Shown here in pieces: positions 34,998-40,216 of a stretch of DNA of 64,000 bases. Below the pieces are notes generated by a model, which saw only the letters and a list, made by a program, of their open reading frames with translations, made no database searches and was not told where the DNA came from. A program made the position numbers and the translations under genes. Every line of letters starts with the position of its first letter. Position 1 is the first letter of the stretch. Source of the DNA: Sphingomonadales bacterium (GTDB lineage: Bacteria > Bacteroidota > Bacteroidia > NS11-12g > UBA955); assembly GCA_016872175.1 (NCBI GenBank), contig VHBA01000004.1, positions 1 through 64,000 on the forward strand, written 5' to 3'.

Positions 34998-36308
34998 TTA
35001 TTTTCTGGTTTTAATGTGCTTTAGGTGGTATTCGCCCAGCATATTGCCCATCATTTTACCTTTTTCAATACCATCAATGAAGTGGATACCACCGTATAAG
35101 CGGCTCATACAAGCTTCGCTTGCAGCTTCACGGAAGTTTTTAAAACTTCTGGCTCCCAGTCCAAATTCCATTTGTGTGCTATCAGTAAAGGCATATTCAC
35201 CAAACATAGAGGTTAAAAGAGCAGCTGAGGAAGAACTAACCACACTGTGCGCACTGGGGTATTCAGGGAAAGGAGGAGTTTGAATGGCGGGTGTCCAACT
35301 GCTGTCTATTAATTTTCTGACAACAGTTTCAGGTCTTACGTATTCTGTCTTGTATTTTGTATCCCAGCAAATTATAAAAGCATCATAAATTACGGCACTC
35401 AACCTGGCGATACCTTCTGCTGATTTAAGCAAATCGTATTTCTTTTGTTTCGCAACATTACTAAAAATACTGAGCCAGTGTCCGGGAGGAGAGATGCGCA
35501 AAACGCCAATGGTAGCATGACCATAGTGAATCGATGAATTTGGATTATCATCCCAGTATTTGGCTATTCCAAGTAATGAACTATCCTGATTTTTACTTTG
35601 ATCATAAACCTGTTTGGTGATTTTATAAAAACGACTGTTTTTTTCTTTGCTGTAGGGTTCAGGTTCAGGTATACTTATACTTGAAGCTGCAGGAACTGCA
35701 GCTGTTCGTAATTTAAACCAGTTGGGTTCAAGAGCATCTCCAAATTCAGGTAGGGTAGGCTCCCATTTTCCATCCTCGTGTTTCACAAGATAGAAACCTG
35801 TTCCCCTGGTTTCGCGGTATTGGTCACTTTTCGACCATCTTACAATCGCTGCGCCAACGGAATCTCCGTACTCGACAGAGTTTTCAAAGGTAGAAGAGGG
35901 CAGATTTTTTTGGTAATAATCAAGTTTCCTTGAACGGAAATTGGCAATGCTGTCTTCCTGAAAAACAAGTTTCTGACTTGTGAATGTGTGTGCGCACAAC
36001 GCTATCAGATCGAGACAATAGCCTTTGCTGGTATCCGGTTTAGGAATGTTCTTAAGTCCGTTTAACTGGCCGGCCAGCGAAATATAATCTTTTGAAAAAG
36101 GTACCAGCGATTCATAGGCAGCAACTCCGGCATAATAGTAACGACGACTTGCTACCGGTGGGGGAATACGGTCTACAACAACAGCATTTTGAATGGCCAC
36201 ATTGCATTCCGTGAGGACGTCATGCTTGAGTATAATCTTGTCAGTATTTATTTTGGTGCAGGCAGAAGTCAGCAAAACAAACGATAAAACAACAATATTA
36301 AATTTCAT
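34998..36308 (-). CDS. Vanadium-dependent haloperoxidase / PAP2-superfamily lipoprotein
   Basis: EYVRPETVVRK, PPFPEYPSAHSVVSS, CMSRLYGGIHFIDGIEKG PAP2-like motifs; start re-assigned from 36404 to MKFNIVVLSFVLLTSAC at 36308. Confidence 0.82.
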   Translation of the reverse strand: MKFNIVVLSFVLLTSACTKINTDKIILKHDVLTECNVAIQNAVVVDRIPPPVASRRYYYAGVAAYESLVPFSKDYISLAGQLNGLKNIPKPDTSKGYCLDLIALCAHTFTSQKLVFQEDSIANFRSRKLDYYQKNLPSSTFENSVEYGDSVGAAIVRWSKSDQYRETRGTGFYLVKHEDGKWEPTLPEFGDALEPNWFKLRTAAVPAASSISIPEPEPYSKEKNSRFYKITKQVYDQSKNQDSSLLGIAKYWDDNPNSSIHYGHATIGVLRISPPGHWLSIFSNVAKQKKYDLLKSAEGIARLSAVIYDAFIICWDTKYKTEYVRPETVVRKLIDSSWTPAIQTPPFPEYPSAHSVVSSSSAALLTSMFGEYAFTDSTQMEFGLGARSFKNFREAASEACMSRLYGGIHFIDGIEKGKMMGNMLGEYHLKHIKTRK

Positions 36309-36371
36309 GGTGATTACAAAGTTACAGTTTCCCGCCAATTGATAAATAATGATTGTTGAATTTAGAATGAA

Positions 36372-36400
36372 TAAAAAAAGCGACCCGATTGGATCGCTTT
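36372..36400 (-). terminator. Intrinsic terminator downstream of the 49-aa basic ORF
   Basis: Minus strand: aaagcgatcc-aatc-gggtcgcttt then tttttat (one G-U wobble). Confidence 0.85.
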
Positions 36401-36420
36401 GCATAGTTGTTTATTTAAGG

Positions 36421-36570
36421 TTATTCCTGATCTTCCAGAATGATACCTGATTCACCTTTGAAAGGAGAGGCAAGTAAAACTACGGATTTAAGGCGCTTAA
36501 TGGTTTGCACCCTGCGGTTTGATCTGGCTCTGATTTTGGCTTCTTTACGCTTAAGTCTGGTAACTCCCAT
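36421..36570 (-). CDS. 49-aa highly basic conserved-looking small protein (not in ORF track)
   Basis: MGVTRLKRKEAKIRARSNRRVQTIKRLKSVVLLASPFKGESGIILEDQE*; own consensus promoter (36590-36619) and terminator (36372-36400). Confidence 0.7.
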   Translation of the reverse strand: MGVTRLKRKEAKIRARSNRRVQTIKRLKSVVLLASPFKGESGIILEDQE

Positions 36571-36589
36571 GGCTGTTTTTTTAGAAGTG

Positions 36590-36619
36590 CAAATATAGGA
36601 TTTTATTTTGAATATTCAA
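36590..36619 (-). promoter_or_regulatory. Consensus Bacteroidota promoter TTG-N19-TAnnTTTG
   Basis: Minus strand: ttg-aatattcaaaataaaatcc-tatatttg, spacing exactly 19. Confidence 0.75.
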
Positions 36620-36625
36620 TTAAAA

Positions 36626-39600
36626 TTAGAGTTTATTGCCATAAACATCAAGAAACTGAACAGATTTTACTTGCTCATTCATCCATACACCCGGTCTTGA
36701 GGCTGATAAATAGCCCCAACCATGCGATAGATTTTCCACGCGTGATCCGCCATTTTTCAGGAAAACCTTTGCCCTTGCAGCTTTTGTGGGTGAAGCAATA
36801 AACTTCATGTTATTTTTACTAAGTCTGAATGCCTTGGAATTGCTATTGTTTTGCGTTGCAACCAAGCATAATGATTTTCCCGGAAAATCCATCCATACGA
36901 GCGATTTAGCATCTCCATCCACAACAAAGCCATTTTCTCTTCCATGGCTGAAACTGAACCCTTTTCCATTATTGTTATAGAGAACAAATCCTGACATAGC
37001 ATCATCCCTACCATACTCGACCTTTGGAGCGTAACTGTTACCAATACCAATAATATCCAAAAATCCGTTTCCATCTACATCTGCTGAGGCAATACCGTAT
37101 AACGGTCCTGACTGCGCAAGCCTGGGCAACGTCTCAACGCCAAAGGAACCTCCGTTGTTTCTTAGCAATAAACTATTAAACTGAGATGCACGCATATTAT
37201 TATTTTTTAAGTTATTGTCTCCAAAAATTTCTTGTACAGTTTTTCCGGCAAAGGAGGCATACGTTGTGAATCTTTTCTTCATAAACAAAGGGTAGGCAAC
37301 TCCCATTTCATCTAGTTCATGAATGGGATATTCTTTTCGGTCTTTGCTGTAGGTTAGCCAGAAATCAACATTCCCGCTTTGGTCCAGATCAGTCCAGTAT
37401 ATTTTAACGTTATTTTCCTCAGTAGCCTGAAAAAACGAATTCATACCTTTATTTCCTGCAATAATATCAAGGTCTTCATCATTGTCTATATCTACTGCCA
37501 TTAAGCTATTATACCAACCCGGAATACCTACCGTTCCTGCCTCTCCGGTCTGGTTTACCAGCTTGCTGCCATTATTGGCCAGAAAGGCTACAGGCATCCA
37601 CTCTCCTGAAACAATAAGGTCCATTTTGTTATCGTTGTTATAATCGCAGAAAACAGCAGCACAAACCATCCCAGGCTGGTATAAGTCAGGAGCGGCATAT
37701 TCTGTCACATCCACATACACACCTTTATTATTTTGAAGAAGGTAGCTTCTTATTTTTACATCGGGGAAACTCCCGGGTTTAAGGCGCCCACCAACAAATA
37801 AATCCAGATCGCCGTCACCATCAATATCACCGGCAGCTACACATGCACCACTTGCATTAAGGTCTGGTATGGCACCTGTCCTTTCAGTAAAATTGCCTTT
37901 ACCGTCATTGAAATACAATCTATGTTTATATGCATGATTAGGGAAACCATATTCACTGCCGCCTGCTGCCATATAAATGTCATTATCACCATCTGCATCC
38001 GCATCATAAATCAAACAACCCAATACATCCACATTATTCATTGATTTCCATGGTTGAGATGGAGATACAGTGAGCTTTCCATCTTTGGTTTGAAGGTAAA
38101 GCATAGAACCACTGCTTTCTCTGGCATTGCTTATCAATAGGTCCGTAAGTCCGTCTCCGTTCACATCTCCGGTTGAACTACCGGGTCCTAACATGGAATA
38201 TCGGTGGGGAATAAGAGGCTCTCGTTTAAAATCGGGATTATCGCCTTCCTTATGAATAAAGTTTAGACCTATTTCTCCTGTTATTTCTTCAAATGTATAA
38301 GTTTCCTTTTGTGTATAATCCCATTTTCCTGCTGCATTATTTTCATCAACCTCAAGAACCTGGTTTGACTTTACATTATTAAAAACCTGAAACTCTCCAT
38401 TGGGCCAAATTACGGTTAATTTTTTCAGAACGGACTGTTCTCCAAGGCCTATGTGAACTAACGGCTCCGTAGCACTTTGGTAACCTCTGGATTGTTGCAT
38501 TTCTGCAATTTGCTGGCCTGAATCGGTATCTGTAATAATTTTACAACCAATACCGTATCGGTTATTCTTTTTACCCCCTTTACATTTTATCCGGAGATAA
38601 TTTTTGTCAGGTCCAATATTTTTGTATACATGGGCTGCATCGCCCTGATTACAAACAATAAGATCTAGCTTGCCGTCTGCATTTAGGTCAGCATAAGTAG
38701 CACCTGAACTTAGCGTCGGCTCTTCAAGCCCCCACTGTTGGGTGACATTGGAAAAACTGTAATTACCGGTGTTTTTATAGGCATAATTAGAAAGCTTTTC
38801 GAAAGGGAGTTTTTCAAGTATTTCTTTGTGGTTAATGGTGGTGCCATAAGCCAGTTTTTCAGCTTCAATCTCTGAAATATTAAGCTTTGAGGCTATTTCT
38901 TTTATGGTAGGCTCTCTGTTTAGTTCGCTTTTCAATATGTTAAGAGGTTTTTTCAACTGCTGATCTTTTCGTTGTTGAAACAACATGAAATCCAGGTTGG
39001 TGACATCACGGTAATATCCATTTGTAATAAACAAATCCGGGTTGCCATCATTGTCATAATCAGCAAACAGGGGGCTCCAGCTCCAGTCGGTTCTGGCTAC
39101 CCCATTCAGATAAGCTAAATCTGCAAAATGACCTTTAAAATTGGTTTGTAAATTGTTGTGCATATATTGATAACCGTATCCACTGCGCAGCGCCGTGGTA
39201 AAGAAATCATACTTTTTGGGTCCTGCCAGTAAACCAAATCTTCTTGGATCTTCAGAAAGCATGTCTACAGTAAACAAATCCATCCAACCGTCTTTGTTGT
39301 AATCTGCTGCATCTGCCCCCATACTATTCGCACTGCTATGTTTGAAATTAGAATTAAACTGATTTTTAAAAGTACCATCGCCATTGTTTATGTAATAATA
39401 ATCCGGCACATGGTAGTCATTACAGATGTATAGATCTGTAAAACCATCTTTGTTGAAGTCTGCAGCTGTGGCACTTAAGCAGTATCCCATAGTATTAACA
39501 CCGGCAGCTTCACTTACGTCGGTAAATTTTTTACCGTCATTCACAAACAAATGCTGCTGGCTTTTTTCATCCCTGTGTAGAGCAGGGGTAAAGGGTGTGG

Positions 39601-40216
39601 CAATGTCAGCAAAAAATCTGTCGGCATGATTACCCAGATACATATCAAGATCACCATCATTATCCATATCGAAAAAGGTGGCACATGTAGCATTGCCCGG
39701 GTCATCAACGCCCCATTCGGCAGCTTTTTCCGTGAATGTCAGGTTACCGTTGTTGATGAAAAGCAAATTTCGTTTACGATCTTTATTTTTATCAGGTCCG
39801 CTGCGGCAGATATAAATATCCTGAAACCCATCATTATTCACATCGGCCAGGCTAATTCCACTCATCCAGTATGCGGTTTTTAATCCAGCTTTTTCTGTGA
39901 TGTCCTCGAAGGTGAAATTTCCCTTGTTGAGATAAAGCACTGCTGGTTTTTCATTACCGGTAAAGATGATTTCGGGCAATCCATCATTGTTTAAATCTCC
40001 GGTTGCAACCCCATTTCCATTGAAAAGATAATGATATGTAAACTGATTAAGTGTATCATTTTCAGGAATTGTATTCACAAAGGTGATACCGGTTTCTTCG
40101 GGTTTGGTTAACTCAAAGATAGCCTCCTGTTCATCATCGGTTTTTTCGCATGAAGTAAAGATTGACAAGGCGGAAAGTGTGAAGCAGGCAGAAATGAAAA
40201 ACGGAATATTACGCAT
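36626..40216 (-). CDS. VCBS/FG-GAP repeat plus ASPIC/UnbV domain lipoprotein (CRTAC1-like), 1196 aa
   Basis: Many DxNxDGxxDL repeats (DLNNDGLPEIIF, DVNNDGFQDIYI, DMDNDGDLDMYL...); PLVHIGLGEQSVLKKLTVIWPNGEFQVF ASPIC/UnbV-like; TSCEKTDDE lipobox. Confidence 0.9.
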   Translation of the reverse strand: MRNIPFFISACFTLSALSIFTSCEKTDDEQEAIFELTKPEETGITFVNTIPENDTLNQFTYHYLFNGNGVATGDLNNDGLPEIIFTGNEKPAVLYLNKGNFTFEDITEKAGLKTAYWMSGISLADVNNDGFQDIYICRSGPDKNKDRKRNLLFINNGNLTFTEKAAEWGVDDPGNATCATFFDMDNDGDLDMYLGNHADRFFADIATPFTPALHRDEKSQQHLFVNDGKKFTDVSEAAGVNTMGYCLSATAADFNKDGFTDLYICNDYHVPDYYYINNGDGTFKNQFNSNFKHSSANSMGADAADYNKDGWMDLFTVDMLSEDPRRFGLLAGPKKYDFFTTALRSGYGYQYMHNNLQTNFKGHFADLAYLNGVARTDWSWSPLFADYDNDGNPDLFITNGYYRDVTNLDFMLFQQRKDQQLKKPLNILKSELNREPTIKEIASKLNISEIEAEKLAYGTTINHKEILEKLPFEKLSNYAYKNTGNYSFSNVTQQWGLEEPTLSSGATYADLNADGKLDLIVCNQGDAAHVYKNIGPDKNYLRIKCKGGKKNNRYGIGCKIITDTDSGQQIAEMQQSRGYQSATEPLVHIGLGEQSVLKKLTVIWPNGEFQVFNNVKSNQVLEVDENNAAGKWDYTQKETYTFEEITGEIGLNFIHKEGDNPDFKREPLIPHRYSMLGPGSSTGDVNGDGLTDLLISNARESSGSMLYLQTKDGKLTVSPSQPWKSMNNVDVLGCLIYDADADGDNDIYMAAGGSEYGFPNHAYKHRLYFNDGKGNFTERTGAIPDLNASGACVAAGDIDGDGDLDLFVGGRLKPGSFPDVKIRSYLLQNNKGVYVDVTEYAAPDLYQPGMVCAAVFCDYNNDNKMDLIVSGEWMPVAFLANNGSKLVNQTGEAGTVGIPGWYNSLMAVDIDNDEDLDIIAGNKGMNSFFQATEENNVKIYWTDLDQSGNVDFWLTYSKDRKEYPIHELDEMGVAYPLFMKKRFTTYASFAGKTVQEIFGDNNLKNNNMRASQFNSLLLRNNGGSFGVETLPRLAQSGPLYGIASADVDGNGFLDIIGIGNSYAPKVEYGRDDAMSGFVLYNNNGKGFSFSHGRENGFVVDGDAKSLVWMDFPGKSLCLVATQNNSNSKAFRLSKNNMKFIASPTKAARAKVFLKNGGSRVENLSHGWGYLSASRPGVWMNEQVKSVQFLDVYGNKL

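Follow-up and report, generated by a model that had tools for sequence, protein, structure and literature searches.

A lineage-specific single-copy micro-gene in part of the class Bacteroidia encodes a small basic protein that may be ribosome-associated

Translation initiation in Bacteroidota departs from the standard Shine-Dalgarno scheme. The described systems closest to the micro-gene reported here, which lies in a 64,000-nucleotide stretch of Bacteroidia DNA (contig VHBA01000004.1; hereafter the window), are small ribosomal proteins. The protein bS22 of the F. johnsoniae 30S subunit (7jil chain 5, AURKAIP1/COX24 type) is, like the predicted micro-protein, very small, very basic, helical and single-copy, and both are lineage-restricted and missed by annotation in some genomes. 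The two differ in sequence and are encoded by separate genes, with bS22 located at C10:45659-45745 of genome G000 and present in 37 of 38 relatives; identity with bS22 was rejected because there is no sequence match and the same genomes carry a separate bS22 gene. Another parallel is bL38 (Borrelia BB0162), a small ribosomal protein restricted to certain lineages, which was first observed and named in the ribosome of F. johnsoniae, a member of the Bacteroidota. It is described as containing beta-strands (PMC10618245), whereas the micro-protein is predicted to form one helix and a tail, so that bL38 as described would be a poor fit. The eukaryotic protein eL41 is also a short Arg/Lys-rich helix, and its profile (PF05162, Ribosomal_L41) gives a weak local match to residues 4-17 of the window micro-protein, with 16.3 bits against a cut-off of 22.3 (E 0.0095). 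No other scanned family member scores, and this match of 14 basic residues is most likely compositional.

Comparison with the curated collections returned nothing above the cut-offs, either in Pfam (24 members) or in NCBIfam (24 + 16 members), and an NCBIfam match to ATP synthase epsilon (E 7e-4, one member only) was taken as compositional. PDB searches with single sequences and with profiles A1, A2 and A5 gave chance-level matches only, the F. johnsoniae ribosomes (7jil and others) included; the species of those ribosomes may simply lack the micro-gene. The motif M[GA]VTxLKRK occurs in no open-access paper searched. Bacteroidota are not known to form endospores, so the name 'spore protein' given to one family member is unfounded and misleading, and literature searches with this name provided no lead on the family. 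That member, RefSeq WP_181718607.1 from the Pedobacter plasmid pA27BH1, shares 66.7% identity along its entire length with a version of the micro-protein from Sphingobacteriaceae.

The micro-gene and its flanking signals are arranged in the window as follows:
36590-36619, minus strand: Bacteroidota-type promoter TTG-N19-TATATTTG (sequence; TAnnTTTG in 66/78 distinct homologs)
36421-36570, minus strand: gene of the 49-aa basic protein MGVTRLKRKEAKIRARSNRRVQTIKRLKSVVLLASPFKGESGIILEDQE, stop codon included (sequence, homologs, dN/dS 0-0.06)
36487-36570, minus strand: residues 1-28, predicted basic helix with the core M[GA]VTxLKRKxxxN (alignments, AlphaFold2)
36424-36468, minus strand: residues 35-49, SPFKGESGIILEDQE, with the C-terminal motif SPYKGESGIxLED (alignments; low-confidence extended in AlphaFold2)
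36377-36400, minus strand: intrinsic terminator-like hairpin of 10 pairs (5 GC) with a loop of 4, then TTTTATTC

The reading frame, which closes with the stop codon at 36423-36421, gives a translation identical to that proposed in the initial annotation, and the promoter and the GC hairpin with its U-run lie where they had been placed, at 36619-36590(-) and 36400-36377(-). The ATG starts 19 bases past TATATTTG, and TTG-N19-TATATTTG has the Bacteroidota sigma-factor layout, as judged by inspection. When the hairpin was scored against shuffled sequence, a mean of 0.4 such sites was expected by chance. The promoter is conserved: of the 78 distinct homologous loci that have no tRNA upstream, 66 show TAnnTTTG within the 60-nt leader, compared with 2.8 expected from shuffled sequence. 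An Rfam search of the window found no family, so no RNA element accounts for these signals, and a tRNA search of the window found none. The haloperoxidase open reading frame had been thought to overrun the micro-gene; its extended form (34998-36404) stops at 36404 and covers the terminator only. This N-terminal extension is spurious, and the true start of the PAP2/haloperoxidase neighbour is likely the lipoprotein-like MKFNIVVLSFVLLTSAC at 36308, judging from its sequence.

Comparison of six same-genus genomes, in which the micro-protein is 96-100% identical to the window copy, revealed dN/dS values of 0-0.06 over 15 pairs at dS of 0.3-1.7; one example pair differs by 23 synonymous and 2 nonsynonymous changes. 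The frame is certainly protein-coding and under strong purifying selection. That so short a gene, lying under the open reading frame cut-off of the first reading, might be a chance or spurious frame is contradicted by these ratios, by its presence as a single copy family-wide and by its conserved promoter, leaving that explanation a negligible probability.

The window protein belongs to the M[GA]VTxLKRK family of Bacteroidia, which has no curated name, by its N-terminal core, single copy and small size, and the earlier impression that MGVTRLKRK-like proteins recur in Bacteroidota was borne out by homologs across many Bacteroidia families. Of the outcomes that the initial annotation had listed as refuting it, missing homologs and missing purifying selection are therefore both excluded. 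A single micro-gene copy is present in 34 of 34 near-complete relatives, in 41 of the 42 genomes of its own family (the exception is a draft assembly) and in 81/81 genomes of family f3, named Sphingobacteriaceae via the 67%-identical Pedobacter plasmid protein. A single copy in nearly every genome is what would be expected of a gene of the core machinery. Among 395 sampled Bacteroidia genomes, profiles widened stepwise (A1, A2, A4 and A5) detected the micro-gene in 94-95 (about 24%), with one copy each, and its presence follows families rather than scattered strains; in about 300 genomes, and in many families as a whole, no copy is detectable, which means that not all of the class relies on this function. 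The final profile rounds gained only family f73 and weak matches, indicating that the homolog search is near saturation. The weak matches in f77 and f78 are candidate members; at the f78 site, the core motif does not open a clean reading frame. Phage-borne spread was considered and rejected, as the family has no match in phage records or IMG/VR contigs. The micro-gene is thus a lineage-specific single-copy core gene in part of the class Bacteroidia.

Alignments A1-A4 revealed that the part common to all versions of the protein is N-terminal: the core M[GA]VTxLKRKxxxN, continued by basic sequence up to about position 28. In the window copy, Lys/Arg make up 12 of residues 1-28. The C-termini vary by lineage and fall into three main types: SPYKGESGIxLED in the own order, f68 and f87; KNVDxEELKxxF in Pontibacter, f10 and f12; and ELGSRSxxPKxxQIxKNNAVL in Sphingobacteriaceae, the motif of the window copy being replaced in the latter two. 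AlphaFold2, run with 28 sequences, predicted one helix at residues 5-28, followed by a low-confidence extended tail, with a pLDDT of about 90 across residues 1-20. Small proteins that take up their fold on RNA usually have a shape like this modelled basic helix with a loose tail, but the shape is not specific to them.

In most loci of its own family, the micro-gene lies between VCBS/ASPIC and PAP2/haloperoxidase genes. In the window, the PAP2/haloperoxidase gene occupies 34998-36308(-) and the VCBS/UnbV-ASPIC gene 36626-40216(-); outside the genus, these neighbours show roughly 40-65% identity in the same order, and their pairing may itself be functional. The initial description of the micro-gene as stand-alone is right as to its own promoter and terminator and needs qualifying as to its position, which is fixed between these two genes in most of the family. 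Other families place it elsewhere. In Sphingobacteriaceae, it directly follows tRNA-Cys in 11/11 loci scanned, and in nine of these a gene for a SpoU-type rRNA methylase also lies a short way upstream. In f10 and f12, the micro-gene and hisS are divergently oriented (15 genomes, 18 locus records). Pontibacter and f11 have an ltaE-like gene on one side of it and a yfcE-like gene on the other, and in f68, f87 and f97, it adjoins a speA-like gene. Single relatives have tRNA-Gly/tRNA-Leu or tRNA-Arg near it, and the loci with VCBS/PAP2, speA or ltaE neighbours, those of the own family among them, have no adjoining translation gene. Comparison of loci across families indicated that the neighbours are largely fixed within a family and differ between families. 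The occurrence of translation genes beside the micro-gene in two separate lineages is suggestive rather than decisive.

These arrangements bear on whether the micro-protein is a partner of the flanking surface proteins, for example by regulating their gene pair or by acting as its leader peptide. That most own-family loci keep the micro-gene between VCBS and PAP2 would fit such a partnership. Against it, other families have the same protein beside quite different genes, the micro-gene is flanked by a promoter and a terminator of its own, and no signal peptide is apparent; together, these points make the partnership very improbable. The micro-gene passes on by vertical inheritance and does not belong to the adjacent surface-protein pair.

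In the sister family f2, one branch carries a longer version of 158-181 aa, in which the basic core is joined through a linker to a helix-hairpin-helix domain. In NCBIfam, this tail is most similar to tails at the C-terminus of ribosomal protein bL21 and less so to bS2, and a bL17 in the same order (genome G019) also has a helix-hairpin-helix tail, recognised by eye from its sequence. In another f2 genus (G025:C42:45800-46700), the tail is a frameshifted, stop-broken remnant right after an intact small gene; the tail has decayed while the basic core is intact, so the core is what selection keeps. We consider the domain a mobile accessory tail. Within the own order, the same kind of tail also occurs on coiled-coil membrane proteins and ActD-like respiratory proteins. 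Since it is found on membrane proteins and a respiratory-complex subunit, the link of the tail to ribosomes is loose.

Taken together, the composition, the single-copy core status, the extreme conservation, the independent promoter, the translation neighbours in two lineages and the tail in common with ribosomal proteins favour the reading of the micro-protein as a lineage-specific ribosomal or ribosome-associated protein, to which we assign a probability of about 0.55. Its near-universal single-copy presence in the carrier lineages (81/81 and 41/42 genomes) is what a ribosomal protein would display. The initial proposal of a ribosome- or RNA-associated product thus stands as the best reading, as deduced from what the protein is made of, its place in the single-copy core, the genes beside it and its fusion to another domain. 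The narrower proposal, an unrecognised ribosomal protein common to several but not all Bacteroidia orders, is put forward more tentatively, with the odds somewhat against it; such a protein could have escaped notice because the Bacteroidota lineages whose ribosomes have been solved so far seem to lack it. In the ribosomal reading, a short-leader promoter of its own would drive expression of the micro-protein, perhaps at a high level, and the product would be present in the ribosome. There, its basic helix near the N-terminus (about residues 5-28) may bind rRNA and sit in an rRNA pocket, while the short C-terminal tail, which varies by lineage, may touch a neighbouring protein or rRNA surface.

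Two other explanations are live rivals to the ribosomal reading. The protein could be a non-stoichiometric RNA-binding factor that binds rRNA or tRNA transiently as a helper in ribosome assembly, rRNA/tRNA maturation or hibernation. The patchy presence between families would suit an accessory factor, and tRNA-Cys, the SpoU rRNA methylase and hisS are its neighbours in other families; yet these neighbours differ from family to family, and near-universal presence within families with very strong conservation is more like a structural component, so that we regard such a factor as unlikely, with perhaps one chance in several. Less likely again is a small DNA-binding or transcription-associated protein, such as a nucleoid protein or an RNA polymerase accessory, for which the basic helix, the Lys/Ala-rich tails of some versions and the helix-hairpin-helix domain of others (a domain that often binds DNA) could be cited. 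The family matches no DNA-binding family, the model is a single basic helix with no dimerisation element, and the same kind of tail is found on bL17 in the own order, all of which speak against it.

The micro-protein belongs to the core set of several large environmental families, Sphingobacteriaceae and genera like Pontibacter included, and it has no curated family or structure and bears a misleading database name. Should it be ribosomal, it would be a new component for a phylum that already departs from Shine-Dalgarno initiation, and this is testable in cultivable species that are not pathogens. A profile for the family would stop gene callers from missing the micro-gene. On the Pedobacter plasmid, two genes for DNA cytosine methyltransferases follow closely downstream of the copy (NZ_MN657144.1 65199-65372).
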